Source: Sandaracinus amylolyticus
GTDB lineage: Bacteria; Myxococcota_A; Polyangia; Polyangiales; Sandaracinaceae
Assembly: GCF_000737325.1 (NCBI RefSeq)
Contig: NZ_CP011125.1
Coordinates: 3,162,001 to 3,226,000 of the forward strand
Reading direction: 5' to 3'
DNA length: 64,000 nucleotides
Part shown: piece after piece, positions 31,115 through 39,462 of the stretch
Layout: the number at the start of each line of letters is the position of its first letter
How positions within the stretch are numbered: position 1 is the first letter of the stretch
Notes under the pieces: generated by a model
Told to the model about the DNA's origin: nothing
Databases searched by the model: none
Seen by the model: only the letters and a program-made list of their open reading frames with translations
Program-made: the position numbers and the translations under genes

Positions 31115-34100
31115 TCACTCGACGGTCAGCACGCGCACGCCCTGCTCCGACGCGGCGCGCGACTCCTGGCGCCACCACGTCGCGACGTACGACGTGGTGC
31201 CGATCAGGACCTGCTCCGCCCAGAACCCAGTGTGGTTCTCGTCGTCGAGCACCGAGATCGTCCACTCCCCGCCGCCCGCGGCGCGACGCGCGAGCATGAG
31301 GTGCTGCACCGTCGCGTCCTGGTACGTGACGCGGATCTCGCCACCGTCGGTCACGACGATCGACGAGTCGTCGCCGACGATGTGGCGCCCGTCGGTGTGC
31401 GGCGTGGTGCCGTCGCTCGTGCCGGTGTCGATCGTCTGCGGCACCGAGGGCACGCCGCCCGCGATCGAGACGTAGCGCAGCGCTTCCTCGGCACCGTCGA
31501 CGTACGCGACGTGCACGGTGCCCGCCGCGTCGACGAAGATCGACGTGCCGATGCCGCTGTCGCCCGAGCTCGAGTCGTCGCCGCGCGCGTAGCCGTCGAC
31601 GAGGATCGGCGCGCCCCACGTGCCGCCGACGCTCGCCAGCTCCGACGCGTAGAGGTTGCCCTGGCCGCGGTCGTACCACGCGACCACGAGCCCGCCCGAG
31701 GGCGTGCGCGCGAGCGCGGTGTAGAGGCCGTACGCGGGCGGCAGATCCTCGACGTAGTTCGCGGGCAGCGCGGCCTGGCAGGTGCCCATGAAGCACTGGT
31801 TGTCGCCGCAGTCCTCCGCGCAGTCGCTCGTCGGGACCACGCACGAGCCGTTCTCGAGGCAGACCTGGCCGGTGCCGCAGAAGTCGGGGCGGCAGAAGAC
31901 GTCCGCGCCCGCGACCTCGGTGATCGTCCAGCTCGTCTCGCTCGTCGGGTTCGCGTCGCTCGCGACGGCGACGCGCACGGTGCTGCGCGGCTGGCCCGAG
32001 CCCGCTGCGTTCTCCTCGACGCGGAGGTACGCGACGGCCGGCGCGCCGCCCTCGAGCAGCACGAGCGACGCGTAACGACCCGCGTCGCCGGTGTCGTCGA
32101 CGGTGTGGGTCTCCCACGCGCCGGGCGATCCGATCGCGAGCTTCAGCGCGCCGTTCGTCGCGTCGTAGTACGCGATGTAGAGGCTCGACCCGGAGTCGGC
32201 GATCGACGTCCAGCGACCGACGTCGTCGCCGGGCGCGCTCACGCCTTCGCGCCAAGCGTCGGGATCGTTGGTGACCGGGCGGTCGGGGGCGCCGTCGACG
32301 ATCTCCCACTCGACGTCACCGCTCGTCGAGATCGTGCCGAGCACGAGATCGCCGTAGCGCTGGTTCGTCGGCACGCCCGCGCTGTACGCGCTGACGTACT
32401 GCTCGCCGCTCTCGCTCACGACGAGATCGAGATCGGTGCCGATCATGCCCTGCTGGAGCGGCGGCTTGCGCATGCACTCGCTGCACGTGACCTCGCAGCC
32501 CGTGCCGACGACGAGGTTCGCGATCGGGCACGTGAACCCGGGATCGCAGAGCGCGTCGACGTCGTAGCTCGCGCACATGTTGGTCTCTTCGCAGCAGATC
32601 TGACCCGCGGTGAGGCCCGGCGGCGCGGCCGCGATGCACATGTCACCGCAGGGCGCGCCGCCACCGCCGTCGCCGCACTCGCAGCCCTGCGCGCCGAGCA
32701 CGAGCGGGAGCATCAGCATCCCGATCGTCAGGACGCGACGCAGCTTCGCGCCATCGAGCGCGCGACGGCGGCGCACCACCATCGCGCCGAGCAGCAGCAG
32801 CGAGCCGACGAGCGCGAGCGGCGCGTTGCGGTCGGTGCCGCCGACCGCGACGCCGCAGTCACAGCCGCCGCCGACCGGGTTCGGAATGCCGCGGATGAGC
32901 GGGAACGTCGCGGAGCTCACGTTGCCCGCTTCGTCACGCACCTCGATGCCGAGCATGCCGCCGTCGACCAGCAGCGAGTCGGGCTCGTAGCGCGGCGACG
33001 ACTGCCACGCGCTCCACTCACCGTCGCGCACGCGGAAGCGGTACTCGAGCTGCTCCTCCGCGCTGATGAGGTCGCTCGCGTGCACGACGAAGCCCGTGCC
33101 CTCGCTCGACACCTGCACCTCGGGCGGCAGGACGTCGACGATGAGCTCGGTGCGCGCCGGGCTGCGGTCGACCGAGTCGCCCTCGCCGCGGATGCGAGCG
33201 CGCGCCTCGATCACGTGGCGCGCCTGGAGCAGCAGCACGTCGTCGTCGATGCGGACGCGCGGATCGCTCGTCCACCGCGACCACGTCATGCCGTCGATGC
33301 GATAGCTGTACTCGTACTCGGCGCCCGGCGCGCCTTCCGCGCCGAAGTGGAGCCACACGCTGTTGCCGTCGCCCTGGGCCCACGTCTCGAGCGCCATGCT
33401 CTCGTGATCGAGCTCGAGGTCCGACACCTCGAGGCTCGTCTCGACCGGCGACACGATCGCGGAGCCCGCGAGCCGCAGGTTCGCGAAGATGCCGAGGAAC
33501 GACTCACCGCCGTCGGCCACGCCGCGAATGCCTTCCGCCGGCACGTCGAGCTCGAAGCCCATGATGTCGGGGAGCGCGATCGGATCGATCGAGCCGCCGA
33601 GCATGCCCGCGAACGTGCCGAGCACGTTCTCGACCGCGCGCGCGACGTTGTCCGGCGGCTCGGTGATCAGCTCGTTGTTGAAGACCATCGAGTTGGTCGC
33701 GGTGACGCCCTCGATGCGCGGCACGATCTCGCCCGCTTCGACGTCCAGATTGATCTCGATGGTGAGATCCGTCTGGTACGTCATGAAGCGCACGTAGCGC
33801 TCGGTGCTCCACACGTACCAGTCGATCTGCACCTGCTCGAGGAACACGGTGAGCAGCGGCGCGCCCGCGTTCGTCCCGATCGTGAAGTCGGGCGGCAGCT
33901 GCGGGCGGATCGCGAGCGTCAGGGGCGAGCCGCGCTCGGGGAACGTGAGCGTGTTGAGCGAGGGCACGAGGCCCGACACGAGACCGGTCGAGAGCTGCTG
34001 GCTGAGGCGCGTGCCCGCACCGATGCACAGCATGCCGCTGTCGAACATCCCGTAGCCCGCGTAGTCGAGGAAGTCCTCGGCGATGCCGATGCCGACGTGC

Positions 34101-35317
34101 GCCGGCGTCGAGGTGCCGGGGATCACGTTGCCGCGGAACGCCTCGGCGCGCGCGATGCTGCAGCCGTCCGCGCCCGTGCCACCGGGCACGCAGGGCGGGT
34201 CGACGACGGGCACGCACGGGTTGTGTCCGGGCGACGTGGTGAACGTCGGATCCATCGACATGAACCCGCCCACCATGAAGAGCGACATGCCGTTGTTGAC
34301 GGCTTCGCCTTCGCCGCCTGCACCGAGCACGAACTGACCGGGCGCGTGGGTTCCGGGCGAGAACCCACCGAGGAACGCCGCGCCGAGATCCCCGCGACCG
34401 TCGGTGCCGAGGAGGATCGGCACGCACTGATCCGGCGCGGACTCGAACACGCACACCGCGTCGGGACCCGCGCCGTCGGGGCGCGAGCCGGGCGTCGGGC
34501 ATCCGGTCTCGCCGGCGCGCGTGCAGAGCTGCGAGTCGATCGCGTCGGTGAGAACGGGCGTGATCTGACCGGTGAGCGCGCCGAGGAGCTGGCCCTTCAC
34601 GAGGCCGATGACGCCGTTGATGATCCCGCCGTCGAGACCGTCACAGCCACCGATGTCGATGTCGTCGTCCTCGATGTCCTGGCCGCTGGCGAAGTTGGCG
34701 CTGGCGACCGCGACGCGCGTGTACCCCGTGCGAGGCGCTCGCGTTTCCTCCACGAAGTCGATGTCGGCCGCGAATCCGATGTGCGGGCGCGATCCGTTCC
34801 TCGTGTCGATGTCGGCCTGGCACGTCGTGTCGAGCCAGAAGAGCACGCCGGATCCGCGCAGTCGGACTGGGATCGCGCGGCGATTTCCTGCCGAATCGCG
34901 GCTGTCGAGGATGACCTGGATCAGCGCGGAGAGGCGGTTCGACCCGTTCTGAGGCGTGAGATCGAGGTCCTGGATCTCACCGCGCGCGACGCAGTCGTTC
35001 GAGGTGCAGAGCGTGTACGAGACGTTCCCGACGCCGATCGACTGGCTGCCCGACATCTGCGGGACGTCGAACTCGAGGCCTCCCATGAGCAGCGTTCCGA
35101 CGATGCTCATGATGTTGTCTTCGATGAACTGGATCCCGCTCTCCGAGAGCCGCACCTGCGCGGAGTTCGGAATGCGCTGGCTGAGCGGGAATCCACCCGG
35201 GATCGGCGCGACGCCGCATCCTTCGCACCCGGAGCAGCCACCGCCGCCGCATGCGAACACCGTGAAGATCAGCATGACCGCGAACAGCGGTCGGCTAAGC
35301 GAGCCAAGGCGTTTCAT
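31115..35317 (-). CDS. Large exported protein: N-terminal lipoprotein with internal MYXO-CTERM fused to a second lipoprotein module
   Basis: 1400-residue protein. The ATG at 35317 has a GGGGAGGA site, and the signal peptide ends in lipobox FTVFAC. The first 800 residues (FPLSQRIPNSAQVRLSESG, then several beta-rich blocks with Ig-like edges around SPVETSLEVSDLELD and PPEVQVSSEGTG) are unrecognised. At 819-821 comes GGCDC, then a hydrophobic helix and RRRR at 849-852, the form of a MYXO-CTERM sorting signal, which normally ends a protein. Here the frame continues without a stop. LRRVLTIGMLMLPLVLGAQGC follows, a second signal-peptide-like segment with lipobox cysteine at about 879. A Cys-rich part and repeat motifs with WYDRGQGNLY and YYDATNGALKLAIG (WD/FG-GAP-like, about 1050-1330) complete it. 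Confidence 0.82.
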   Translation of the reverse strand: MKRLGSLSRPLFAVMLIFTVFACGGGGCSGCEGCGVAPIPGGFPLSQRIPNSAQVRLSESGIQFIEDNIMSIVGTLLMGGLEFDVPQMSGSQSIGVGNVSYTLCTSNDCVARGEIQDLDLTPQNGSNRLSALIQVILDSRDSAGNRRAIPVRLRGSGVLFWLDTTCQADIDTRNGSRPHIGFAADIDFVEETRAPRTGYTRVAVASANFASGQDIEDDDIDIGGCDGLDGGIINGVIGLVKGQLLGALTGQITPVLTDAIDSQLCTRAGETGCPTPGSRPDGAGPDAVCVFESAPDQCVPILLGTDGRGDLGAAFLGGFSPGTHAPGQFVLGAGGEGEAVNNGMSLFMVGGFMSMDPTFTTSPGHNPCVPVVDPPCVPGGTGADGCSIARAEAFRGNVIPGTSTPAHVGIGIAEDFLDYAGYGMFDSGMLCIGAGTRLSQQLSTGLVSGLVPSLNTLTFPERGSPLTLAIRPQLPPDFTIGTNAGAPLLTVFLEQVQIDWYVWSTERYVRFMTYQTDLTIEINLDVEAGEIVPRIEGVTATNSMVFNNELITEPPDNVARAVENVLGTFAGMLGGSIDPIALPDIMGFELDVPAEGIRGVADGGESFLGIFANLRLAGSAIVSPVETSLEVSDLELDHESMALETWAQGDGNSVWLHFGAEGAPGAEYEYSYRIDGMTWSRWTSDPRVRIDDDVLLLQARHVIEARARIRGEGDSVDRSPARTELIVDVLPPEVQVSSEGTGFVVHASDLISAEEQLEYRFRVRDGEWSAWQSSPRYEPDSLLVDGGMLGIEVRDEAGNVSSATFPLIRGIPNPVGGGCDCGVAVGGTDRNAPLALVGSLLLLGAMVVRRRRALDGAKLRRVLTIGMLMLPLVLGAQGCECGDGGGGAPCGDMCIAAAPPGLTAGQICCEETNMCASYDVDALCDPGFTCPIANLVVGTGCEVTCSECMRKPPLQQGMIGTDLDLVVSESGEQYVSAYSAGVPTNQRYGDLVLGTISTSGDVEWEIVDGAPDRPVTNDPDAWREGVSAPGDDVGRWTSIADSGSSLYIAYYDATNGALKLAIGSPGAWETHTVDDTGDAGRYASLVLLEGGAPAVAYLRVEENAAGSGQPRSTVRVAVASDANPTSETSWTITEVAGADVFCRPDFCGTGQVCLENGSCVVPTSDCAEDCGDNQCFMGTCQAALPANYVEDLPPAYGLYTALARTPSGGLVVAWYDRGQGNLYASELASVGGTWGAPILVDGYARGDDSSSGDSGIGTSIFVDAAGTVHVAYVDGAEEALRYVSIAGGVPSVPQTIDTGTSDGTTPHTDGRHIVGDDSSIVVTDGGEIRVTYQDATVQHLMLARRAAGGGEWTISVLDDENHTGFWAEQVLIGTTSYVATWWRQESRAASEQGVRVLTVE

Positions 35318-35460: not shown

Positions 35461-37110
35461 TCACGGACAGCGGATCGGACGCGCGTCGAATCCGGGCTCG
35501 CGACCTTCGGTCGCGTGCCCGAGAGGCACCCACGGTGTCGTTCCGATGACTGTTGCTCGCCCGATGCCCAGCGAGCGCACGGTCGTCGACTCGAGCTCGA
35601 GCGGTGCGCCGGCGACGCGTGCATCGCGAGAGATCGGATGGAGCGCGACGGACGACGAGTACGTCGTCGAGAGCCTCTGCGCGACGATCGCGAGCCAGCC
35701 TCCGGCACGCGGCACGATGTCGTGCGTGGCGAACGCGTCGACGGTGCCGATCGTCACCTCGTCGCCCGCCGGCCACGGACTGCTCGCAGTCGGCACGATC
35801 GAATGGACCTCCAGCGACGACGTGCCGGATCCCGTCGTTGCCCGCTGCAGCCACGCGATCGCGAGTCGATCGCCTTCGTCGGCCACCACCGGACGATCGT
35901 CGTGCAGCGCGTTGTCGGTGATGCGATGCGCCGTTCCTTCAGCGCCGAGCGAGGTGACGGGCTGTACGTAGATCTCGTAGTCCTCGGCCTCCGAAGCGCG
36001 GCCCGAGTAGACGACGTACGTCCGGTCGATCGACGTCGCGGGGACCACGACCTCGTAGTCGAGCGTGCTGAGAGCGATTGCTGTCCGCTCGCTGAAGGCG
36101 TCGGTCGCGATGTTCGTGCCCGAACGCATGCGGACGCCGCTCCCCGATGCGGCGTCGTGAAAGACCATCGTCGTGTACGTGTGCTCGACTTGCAGGCCGT
36201 GCGTCGGGGTCGCGAGGGTGGCGATCCGTCGGGGCCCGGCGGTCACGGCCAACGATGGAAGCTCGGCCGAGAGCAGGTAGACCTCGGTGCCGCGCGAGTA
36301 CGCGACGTACAAGACCGCGCCGCGGACGTCGGTGTCGAGCTGATCAGTGTCGAGCGTGGACGCGAGGTCGACCGTCACGCCCGCAGGCGCGCCGGCAGCA
36401 TCCAGAAGGCGCGCGTGCACGCCCGCATGGTCGGCCCACACCGCGACCAGCCCATCCGCTCGGGGCTCGACGTGGAAGTGGTTGCCCGCGAGCGCGATCC
36501 AGTCCACCGGCTCGCCGAACGCCAGCACACCTTCGTCGACCACGCCGTCGCAGTCGTCGTCGTCTCCGTCGCACGCCTCCGCCGGAGGCGTGCACGTCGC
36601 GCTCGCTGGCAGCGCGCAATCGGCTCCGCACGCGGCGACGCCCGTCGAGCCGCAGCTCGTCTCGCACTCGGTCGCGGCGCCGCGCACGCACGCGAACGTG
36701 TCGTCCGCGCCGCTCGCGCAGTCGTTGTCGCGGCCATCGCAGATCTCGATCGCGCCCGGGTGGCACTCGGCGCACGCGTCGTCGCAGTCGTCGCCGATCG
36801 GCACGCCCTCGCATCGCAGCGCGATGCTGCCCGCGCGTCCGCGTCCATCGCCGTCGCCGTCCTCGAAGAGCTCACGCATCGGGCGGCCATCCGGGCACGC
36901 CTCGGGCGCCGCTCCGTCCCACCCGGGCGGGAAGATCATCCCGCCATCGCTCAGCACGCACGTGCCCACGTCGGTCGCCGTCGTGCCCATCGGGCACACG
37001 CAGCGCCCTTGGTCCTCGCTCCACACGAAATCGCCGCACGCGTAGTCCGGCTCGCACGCGACCAGCACCATCGCCACGCACAGCCCCGACCCGATCACGA
37101 CCTTCGACAT
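35461..37110 (-). CDS. MopE-like metal-binding-motif lipoprotein
   Basis: 549-residue lipoprotein. The ATG at 37110 follows GGAGGG, and the lipobox is VLVAC (about residue 19). A Cys/Asp-rich part (about 20-190) carries the motifs EDGDGDGRG, DDCDDACAECHPGA, EICDGRDNDCASGADD and EACDGDDDDCDGVVDEG. These match the putative metal-binding repeats named after MopE, a copper-binding surface protein of Methylococcus. The remaining 350 residues form beta-propeller-like repeats (WADHAGVHARLLDAAGAP, VYSGRASEAEDYEIYV, ADEGDRLAIAWLQRA). Acidic repeats may bind calcium or copper outside the cell. It is upstream of the fused lipoprotein on the same strand. Confidence 0.88.
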   Translation of the reverse strand: MSKVVIGSGLCVAMVLVACEPDYACGDFVWSEDQGRCVCPMGTTATDVGTCVLSDGGMIFPPGWDGAAPEACPDGRPMRELFEDGDGDGRGRAGSIALRCEGVPIGDDCDDACAECHPGAIEICDGRDNDCASGADDTFACVRGAATECETSCGSTGVAACGADCALPASATCTPPAEACDGDDDDCDGVVDEGVLAFGEPVDWIALAGNHFHVEPRADGLVAVWADHAGVHARLLDAAGAPAGVTVDLASTLDTDQLDTDVRGAVLYVAYSRGTEVYLLSAELPSLAVTAGPRRIATLATPTHGLQVEHTYTTMVFHDAASGSGVRMRSGTNIATDAFSERTAIALSTLDYEVVVPATSIDRTYVVYSGRASEAEDYEIYVQPVTSLGAEGTAHRITDNALHDDRPVVADEGDRLAIAWLQRATTGSGTSSLEVHSIVPTASSPWPAGDEVTIGTVDAFATHDIVPRAGGWLAIVAQRLSTTYSSSVALHPISRDARVAGAPLELESTTVRSLGIGRATVIGTTPWVPLGHATEGREPGFDARPIRCP

Positions 37111-37238: not shown

Positions 37239-38270
37239 TCAGTTCGTGATCTCGATGCCCTGCGCCGCGAACTGCGCGACGAGACGCCACGCGTTGCACG
37301 CGGGCAGGCCCGTCGTGCTGTCGCCGCCGCGATCGCACACGTCCTCTTCGCAGCTCGCGTTCGCGGTGCAGCCGCTCGCGTCGCAGAGCGAGTCCGGCTG
37401 CGTCATCCACGCGCTCTGCGGGTTCACCTCGCAGTAGTCCGCCTGGGTCAGCAGGCCCGCGATCGCCGCGCAGACCGTCGTCATCACGGGGCCGCTCACG
37501 ACCATGCCCTCGCGCGCCGACGCGACCTCGATGAAGCCGTCGAGGATCGCGCCGGTCTGGAAGCGACCGCGGCCCTGCTGCCAGCCGACGCAGCTGCGCT
37601 CGCTGTTGAGCTCGCCCTCGATCACCTGGATGTTCCGCAGCTCGAGCTCGAGCTGCACGTCGGTCTCGGCCTCGTTGAGCACCGGCACCACGACCGAGCC
37701 GGTGTGGCGCTCCGTGACGACGCGCTCGCCCGTGATCGTGCCCGGGATCTCCGCGGGGCCGTAGCGCTCCACGTCGTCGACGCCGAGCGGGTCGCTGCCG
37801 TCGCCCGTCGGGAACGCGTACGTGCCGTCGTCGGCCTTCACGCCGAAGCCCGTGCGCACCGTGACCTCACCGTCTCCGTCCGCGCCCTCGACGCGGATCA
37901 GCCACGCGAACGTGCCCTTCTCGAGCGCGCCGTTGAGCACGCCGAGCAGCACCGGCCCGGTCAGCTGCGAGCCCTCGGGCGCGCTGATCTCGAGGTAGCG
38001 CAGCCGCAGCTCGGGCGCGTCCTGCGCGTCCGACTGCGAGTCGACGTAGCAGCACGGGCCCATGCCCGGCGTGCCGCCGTCGGGCGCCGTGCACGTGACG
38101 TCCGTCGGAGGATCCTCGGTGGGCAGCATCGGCGGTGTCATGGGCGTGCAGCCCGCGTCCGCCTGACCACCGCCGTCCATCCCCCCCGACGTCCCGTCGT
38201 CGTCTCCGCAGCCCACGCTCAGCGCTCCGGCGAGCGCGATCATCGCCAAGCCAATCCGCCCCTTCGACAT
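37239..38270 (-). CDS. Putative lipoprotein of unknown function
   Basis: 343-residue predicted lipoprotein. The ATG at 38270 has GAGGAG upstream; the signal peptide ends in lipobox LSVGC, followed by GDDDGTSGGMDGG, a short flexible linker. The body starts with CTP...MLPTEDPPTDVTC and has several cysteine pairs (GPCCYVD, CEEDVCDRGGD). It contains EISAPEGSQLTGPVLLGVLNGALEKGTFAWLIRVEG, which looks like a beta-sandwich. I do not recognise the family. Probably exported to the outer surface like its neighbours. Confidence 0.75.
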   Translation of the reverse strand: MSKGRIGLAMIALAGALSVGCGDDDGTSGGMDGGGQADAGCTPMTPPMLPTEDPPTDVTCTAPDGGTPGMGPCCYVDSQSDAQDAPELRLRYLEISAPEGSQLTGPVLLGVLNGALEKGTFAWLIRVEGADGDGEVTVRTGFGVKADDGTYAFPTGDGSDPLGVDDVERYGPAEIPGTITGERVVTERHTGSVVVPVLNEAETDVQLELELRNIQVIEGELNSERSCVGWQQGRGRFQTGAILDGFIEVASAREGMVVSGPVMTTVCAAIAGLLTQADYCEVNPQSAWMTQPDSLCDASGCTANASCEEDVCDRGGDSTTGLPACNAWRLVAQFAAQGIEITN

Positions 38271-38375
38271 CCCCAATCTCCTCGTGGTCGCGCGCACGCG
38301 CGAGGCGCCATCCTAACCACAAAGCGGGGCGGTCTGCGCGGTTCGTGGCGCGCGCAACGTTTTTTGTCGGCGCGC

Positions 38376-38420: not shown

Positions 38421-39350
38421 TCAGAGCGTGCCGATCTCGGCCGGCGTCGCGAAGTGCGCGAGCCGCGCGAACGCCGCGTAGCGCGTCGCGATCTCCGCGG
38501 GCGTCACGCGCACGAGGCGCTCGACCGAGATCCCCTCGACGAGGAACGACGCCATCACCGAGCCGTGGATCACCGCGCGGCGCAGCGTCGCGCCGTCGAC
38601 GCGATCCTCCTTCGCCAGGAAGCCGAGCAGGCCGCCCGCGAACGAGTCTCCCGCGCCCGTCGGGTCGAGCACTTCTTCGCACGGGTACGCCGGCGCGCTG
38701 AAGACGCTGTCGCCCTCGAAGAGCAGCGCGCCGTACTCGCCGCGCTTGATGACGACGATGCGCGGTCCCATCGCGAGCAGCGCGCGCGCCGCCTTGAGGA
38801 TGTTGTGCACGCCCGCGAGCTGGCGCGCTTCCTCCTCGTTGATCACGAGCAGGTCGACGCGCTTCAGCATCTTGGCGAGCTCGAGCGGCTTGCCCGAGAT
38901 CCAGAAGTTCATCGTGTCCGCGATCACCAGCTTCGGCGCGTCGATCTGATCGAGCACCGCGACCTGCAGCTCGGGATCGATGTTGCCGAGCATCACGTAC
39001 GGCGTCTTCCGGTGCTCGGCCGGGATCTTCGGCTGGAACGACGCGAACACGCCGAGCTCGGTCTTCAGCGACTCGCGGCTCGTGAGGTCGTCCGAGTAGC
39101 GGCCCTCCCAGAAGAACGTCTTGCCCTCGACGACCTCGAGGCCGCGCACGTCGACGCCCTTGTCGCGGAGCAGCTGCACGCCCGAGTCGGGGAAGTCGCG
39201 TCCGACGACGCCGACCAGCTTCACCGGCGTGAAGTACGACGCCGCGAGCGCCGCGAACGTCGCCGAGCCGCCGAGCACGCGCTCGTGCGTGCCGAGGTGG
39301 TTGTGGATGGTGTCCTGCGCGACCGAGCCGACCACGAGCATCGACGACAT
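38421..39350 (-). CDS. PfkB-family carbohydrate/nucleoside kinase
   Basis: 309-residue cytoplasmic kinase. The ATG at 39350 has GAGGAG 8 bp upstream. It starts MSSMLVVGSVAQDTIHN; the PfkB motif 2 DPTGAGDSFAGGLLGFLA (about 240) holds the catalytic aspartate and anion hole. VLGGSATFAALAASYF matches motif 1. The pattern fits adenosine/ribokinase-type enzymes. It lies 112 bp after the MTA phosphorylase gene, so a nucleoside such as adenosine or methylthioribose-related sugar is a plausible substrate (inference from gene order). Confidence 0.9.
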   Translation of the reverse strand: MSSMLVVGSVAQDTIHNHLGTHERVLGGSATFAALAASYFTPVKLVGVVGRDFPDSGVQLLRDKGVDVRGLEVVEGKTFFWEGRYSDDLTSRESLKTELGVFASFQPKIPAEHRKTPYVMLGNIDPELQVAVLDQIDAPKLVIADTMNFWISGKPLELAKMLKRVDLLVINEEEARQLAGVHNILKAARALLAMGPRIVVIKRGEYGALLFEGDSVFSAPAYPCEEVLDPTGAGDSFAGGLLGFLAKEDRVDGATLRRAVIHGSVMASFLVEGISVERLVRVTPAEIATRYAAFARLAHFATPAEIGTL

Positions 39351-39462
39351 GGGCTCACTCCTCATGAGAACGAACGGGGCACACACGAGTCCGCGCCGCG
39401 GCGATCCTCCTGCTGCGAGGACGCGCGCGGCGCGCACGAAGAACACGGGAAGCCGATCGGGC

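Follow-up and report, generated by a model that had tools for sequence, protein, structure and literature searches.

The cytochrome b/c1 precursor FbcH of Bradyrhizobium is a bacterial polyprotein that is parted at an internal signal peptide by signal peptidase I (SPase I), and it contains neither a sorting tag nor a lipobox. Both of these elements occur in the middle of the protein described here, which is encoded within a 64,000-nucleotide stretch of the Sandaracinus amylolyticus genome (contig NZ_CP011125.1, positions 3,162,001 to 3,226,000; hereafter the window) and which we propose to be a polyprotein of two surface lipoproteins. Its first half ends in a MYXO-CTERM sorting tag, the reading frame continues directly into a second lipoprotein-type signal, and we refer to the junction between the two halves as the hinge.

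An internal MYXO-CTERM has been described in MXAN_5598 of Myxococcus xanthus, which joins an adhesin to an outer membrane beta-barrel with an OmpA domain and for which a gene fusion was suggested and processing of the N-terminal part proposed (Guo, Haft and Wall, mBio 2025, PMC11980579). The two proteins share the tag in mid-protein and differ in what follows it: the C-terminal part of MXAN_5598 is the OmpA-bearing barrel, while half 2 here carries a lipobox and is predicted to be a beta-propeller, and therefore is not of the MXAN_5598 type. In addition, MXAN_5598 was reported as a single atypical case, whereas the hinge is found here in 72 homologues and in unrelated proteins. The TraA/TraB pair of M. 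xanthus (PMC11980579) likewise places a MYXO-CTERM surface protein beside a partner, and its open reading frames (ORFs) overlap as they do in the split pairs reported below; however, TraA and TraB are two ORFs and TraB is an OmpA-type barrel, in contrast to the one chain with a lipoprotein propeller seen here. With regard to the enzymology, the myxosortase MrtX cleaves MYXO-CTERM in a Cys-dependent manner, also in Escherichia coli, and probably after lipidation (PMC11980579). According to sortase and archaeosortase papers as they are cited in PMC11980579, C-terminal sorting tags can also work internally. One such case cited there is a twin-arginine translocation (Tat) substrate of Haloferax volcanii, processed by ArtA at a non-C-terminal tripartite signal; it resembles the present protein in having a C-terminal-type signal inside the chain, and differs in that the host is an archaeon and both enzyme and signal are others.

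In the literature searched, no other relevant double-signal polyprotein of bacteria turned up. The sequence-only reading from which this analysis started had suggested a new processing scheme; an internal MYXO-CTERM, with processing of the part in front of it, had already been proposed for MXAN_5598, and what goes beyond it, and is new within the literature searched, is the second lipobox, the conservation across the phylum and the recurrence in unrelated protein pairs.

Two export signals in one conserved frame

Coordinates (Table 1) are positions in the window unless marked G000:C1, which denotes the source-genome contig; L and G numbers are our labels for loci and genomes. The gene is preceded by GGGGAGG, which resembles a Shine-Dalgarno (SD) motif, and the DNA frame is open through the junction of MYXO-CTERM and lipobox. 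Cys819-Asp-Cys821, the RRRR at residues 849-852 and the lipobox Cys879 lie exactly where the sequence-only reading had placed them, to which we add the strand (minus). That reading had missed Cys23 in the lipobox FTVFAC of half 1, so that the ORF has three lipidation-type cysteine sites, namely, Cys23, the MYXO-CTERM Cys and Cys879.

The MYXO-CTERM signature is complete, comprising the Cys motif, the hydrophobic helix and the Arg cluster, with Cys819 and R850 invariant among 29 half-1 sequences. The TIGR03901 model, whose curated cut-off is 20 bits, scores residues 816-852 at 23.0 bits in a six-frame genome search, 21.9 bits with the hinge fragment and 15.8 bits in a scan of the whole 1400-residue protein. 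The same model matches 25 of the 29 half-1 members, most of them with the tag internal. Since 548 residues follow it and it is thus not at the C terminus, we describe the tag as an internal variant and not as a standard TIGR03901 member. The signal of half 2 shows the basic n-region, hydrophobic core and [GAS]C lipobox of a type II signal peptide; 852 residues precede it, and an N-terminal location is seen only in split orthologues.

Matches were found in 29 of the 38 related genomes searched, and named genomes yielded 77 loci when scanned, among them loci in complete genomes of Sorangium cellulosum and in Sandaracinaceae, Polyangiaceae and Kofleriaceae. When each half was located by its own profile, nearly all loci that cover both halves proved to have them in one stop-to-stop frame. 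The frame is open and both signals are intact in all 72 distinct hinges (Myxococcota, including Sorangium cellulosum), and by inspection every one of them shows the same order: MYXO-type Cys (in the CxC form in 65), helix, basic cluster, loop, second hydrophobic segment and [G/A]Cys. From the Arg cluster to the lipobox Cys there are 14 to 61 residues across the set, and the loop sequence is not conserved. Its net charge, however, is positive in every hinge (mean +6.4, minimum +2; 525 R/K versus 63 D/E), as expected for the cytosolic loop of a hairpin. Under a strict lipobox rule, the second signal is recovered in 54 of the 72 hinges, whereas of 1977 control windows drawn from these proteins the rule hits 12; the second lipobox signal in the hinges is not due to chance. 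One locus, L190 (JAJRXJ010000059.1), is labelled “Actinomycetes bacterium” and carries the gene; it groups inside Myxococcota in the tree and is probably mis-binned.

The sequence-only reading had offered two genes fused by loss of a stop, or one protein cut into two surface lipoproteins, and had held that a sequencing error or split genes in all relatives would refute it. The two ideas are compatible. A fusion is supported by the existence of split pairs, while a recent stop loss, an error or a split in all relatives is contradicted by the 72 distinct homologues, which are fused, have no stop at the junction and keep both signals. Sequencing error or a lost stop is ruled out by an orthologue in the same genus, 95% identical and also in frame, together with about 70 further homologues in frame from independent assemblies. 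Judging from these comparisons, the gene fusion is old and conserved.

In two relatives, G021 and L204, the halves are separate genes with overlapping stop and start codons. The overlap in G021 is TGATG and its gene 2 begins MNARTCLVGALALTLAGVANPGC; in L204 an ATGA overlap stands behind AGGAGGAGGGAG, gene 2 begins MIARAVLAGAPLVLVALLATGC and a strong SD motif is present. Gene 2 of the split pairs starts as an ordinary lipoprotein, which makes the second hydrophobic segment of the fused protein the counterpart of a normal lipoprotein signal. The same two signals thus sit at true protein ends in the split orthologues. The G021 split is nested with 100% support in a clade of fused genes and, because of this, is most simply read as a later fission; for the tree as a whole, the rooting does not settle which of the two states, fused or split, came first, the G021 split alone being clearly nested. 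A paralogue of half 1 with 55% identity (G000:C1:7586213-7588750; L030/L048), which has an orthologue in G002, also bears its MYXO-CTERM as a true end, ...VIGRRRRR followed by the stop.

Proposed processing and its alternatives

We give a probability of about 0.72 to the reading that this is a bacterial polyprotein in which two surface lipoproteins are made as one chain, parted by an excisable two-helix hairpin. Observed are the single conserved frame, the retention of both signals, the recurrence, the homologues that are split and the presence of the enzymes MrtC and LspA; we infer the topology, the two cleavages, the lipidation and the location and function of the halves. The N-terminal signal would route half 1 through Sec, and the MYXO-CTERM helix would act as a stop-transfer segment that leaves RRRR in the cytosol. 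The basic loop and second hydrophobic segment would then serve as a new signal sequence restarting the export of half 2, with the Arg cluster doubling as the C-terminal charge cluster of the first tag and as the n-region of the second signal. On the periplasmic face, the myxosortase MrtC would cut near Cys819/Cys821, probably after Cys lipidation, so that half 1 is anchored, and Lgt and LspA, acting at Cys879, would release half 2 as another lipoprotein; the hairpin left behind would measure about 57 residues. Both halves may then proceed to the outer membrane or the cell surface. The source genome encodes MrtC (NF040594; 245.8 bits, cut-off 195) and has two LspA genes (PF01252).

Several points weigh against this reading. 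Myxosortase action has been shown on C-terminal tags only. Half 1 would carry lipid at both ends, which is unusual, and positions -2 and -3 of the second lipobox are loose (GAQG/C). A chain that stays uncut, in which the two hydrophobic segments persist as a hairpin in the inner membrane and tether the TULIP domain next to the propeller, would fit the sequence through topology alone, cleavage being only inferred. We consider it unlikely: a permanent hairpin needs no Cys at both of its ends, yet a MYXO-type Cys (CxC in 65) and a [G/A]Cys are present in 72 of 72 hinges. The best argument against it is that no homologue has lost either cysteine although the loop drifts. Moreover, the split orthologues and the half-1 paralogue bear the same signals as free ends, and the genome encodes both MrtC and LspA. 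It is quite improbable that a single signal is processed, in which case LspA would most likely act at Cys879 and half 1 would retain an uncut MYXO-CTERM with a hairpin tail. The restriction of myxosortase tests to C-terminal tags favors this, as does the finding that the uncleaved MYXO-CTERM proteins of a delta-mrtX mutant still arrive at the surface in part (PMC11980579). Against it stand the invariance of the MYXO-CTERM Cys in half 1, the largely internal TIGR03901 matches and the internally working sortase and archaeosortase tags, as far as these are represented in PMC11980579.

The remaining alternative, that there are two genes with half 2 translated from an internal start and that the fused frame has no significance or stems from faulty assembly, is close to refuted. 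Split pairs do exist, and an in-frame start codon of some kind is found near the hinge in 51 of the 72 homologues; only 4 of the 72, however, have an SD-like motif with such a start, and we rejected an internal translation start for half 2 for this reason. No fused member has a stop after half 1, so the full chain must be made, and many assemblies made independently, complete Sorangium genomes included, show the frame intact. The real split pairs, by comparison, show a stop, a start and, in L204, the strong SD motif, and the pair in G021 is nested among fused genes.

Recurrence of the hinge in unrelated proteins

A six-frame search of the source genome yielded 82 TIGR03901 hits, most of which end no more than 10 residues past the Arg cluster. 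Seven of the 82 continue in frame into a signal peptide and a long domain; the proteins are unrelated, and six have a lipobox and one an SPase I signal. Besides the protein described above, these are loci L119-L123 and L127 (Table 1), with domains assigned by Pfam, except that the propeller-like and lipoprotein descriptions lacking a Pfam hit are a reading of the sequence. In L127, the hinge loop that separates the Arg cluster from the second signal contains a tandem repeat of SANAGTA-type units. We did not count G000:C1:7047552 (L124), where the 117-residue Arg-rich tail after MYXO-CTERM shows no signal; the tail itself is possibly due to a frame error or a lost stop. A hit at G000:C1:10108873 is located inside what its sequence suggests to be a kinase/PAS-type protein and was judged a false MYXO-CTERM.

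A profile of the hinge added at least 20 further lipobox cases in relatives, confirmed by reading the DNA. A profile search extended over the class and phylum had strict thresholds that missed known cases, and its tallies are thus lower bounds. The same architecture is also seen outside the source organism's class, in other families of the phylum (L285 and L291 with a lipobox, L277 of the SPase I type). It appears reasonably probable that Myxococcota possess a general polyprotein device, in which MYXO-CTERM and signal peptide stand back-to-back with a shared Arg cluster and an excisable hairpin, and by which unrelated pairs of surface proteins would be obtained in equal amounts from one ORF after separation by myxosortase and LspA (or SPase I).

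Predicted folds, neighbors and significance

Neither half has a Pfam or NCBIfam domain above cut-off, and PDB sequence profiles gave no match for half 1 and one marginal match for half 2; the folds of both halves come only from structure prediction. The AlphaFold2 models were built on family alignments, and that of half 1 has a predicted local distance difference test (pLDDT) score of 79.8 and matches BPI (1bp1) with a Foldseek E value of 3.7e-17 (Z 15.6, root mean square deviation 4.6 over 441 residues). The model of half 2 is closest to CylK (Z 33), followed by PLL-type lectins (Z about 29-30). A shared fold is no proof of function for either half; binding of lipid by a BPI-like half 1 is probable, as is binding of sugar or some other ligand by the propeller of half 2. 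Compared with the BPI/LBP/CETP TULIP proteins and the bacterial DUF4403 (PMC6791001), half 1 (32762-35317) is predicted to share the double-TULIP BPI fold but has no Pfam or PDB sequence match, with about 12% identity, and possibly represents a new bacterial TULIP family. In many relatives the gene follows the PfkB-type kinase and lipoprotein genes, which supports orthology.

Table 1. Features of the proposed polyprotein gene, its upstream neighbors and the comparable genes of the same genome
Feature	Position	Strand	Basis or remark
Whole gene of the proposed polyprotein	31115..35317	-	1400 amino acids; ATG at 35317; stop TGA 31115-31117
First signal peptide, residues 1-22, ending FTVFA/C	35252..35317	-	Sequence; Cys23 at least 90% conserved
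Half 1, predicted BPI/LBP/CETP-like double TULIP fold, residues 49-617	33467..35173	-	AlphaFold2 model and fold matches
Half 1, two predicted FN3/Ig-like domains, residues 622-811	32885..33454	-	Fold matches, Z 8-10
Internal MYXO-CTERM, residues 816-852: GGGCDCG, helix, RRRR	32762..32872	-	TIGR03901; Cys819 invariant in 29 half-1 sequences
Second signal segment, residues 853-878: ALDGAKLRRVL plus TIGMLMLPLVLGAQG	32684..32761	-	Hydrophobic segment and [G/A]C in 72/72 distinct homologous hinges
Lipobox Cys879, predicted lipidated N terminus of half 2	32681..32683	-	Residue -1: G in 66/72, A in 6/72 homologues
Half 2, predicted seven-bladed beta-propeller, residues about 956-1400	31118..32452	-	AlphaFold2 pLDDT 88.4
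MopE-type lipoprotein gene, upstream	35461-37110	-	Seen only here and in G002
Second lipoprotein gene, upstream	37239-38297	-	Syntenic in many relatives
PfkB-type kinase gene, upstream	38421-39446	-	Syntenic in many relatives
Polyprotein candidate	G000:C1:41048		Nidogen-like / MopE-MAM; lipobox
Polyprotein candidate	G000:C1:10249955		Amidase_3 / propeller-like; lipobox
Polyprotein candidate	G000:C1:213837		Heparinase-like / lipoprotein without assigned family; lipobox
Polyprotein candidate	G000:C1:6224510		Ig-like / TSP3; lipobox
Polyprotein candidate, L127	G000:C1:9990039		DUF4114-MopE / MopE-BNR; lipobox
Polyprotein candidate	G000:C1:867999		DUF11 and Ig-like adhesin / OmpA; SPase I-type; MXAN_5598-like

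Polyproteins are uncommon in bacteria, and both the definition and the annotation of C-terminal sorting tags treat them as the end of a protein. In the present case, a sorting tag regularly precedes another export signal, both in a family conserved across Myxococcota and in many proteins that are unrelated. Should the chain be processed as proposed, myxosortase would work without a free C terminus, the tolerance of such fusions would be explained, and paired surface proteins would be produced at a fixed 1:1 output, which also means that current annotation would be treating two proteins as one. The protein provides a natural substrate for the action of myxosortase and LspA on one chain.

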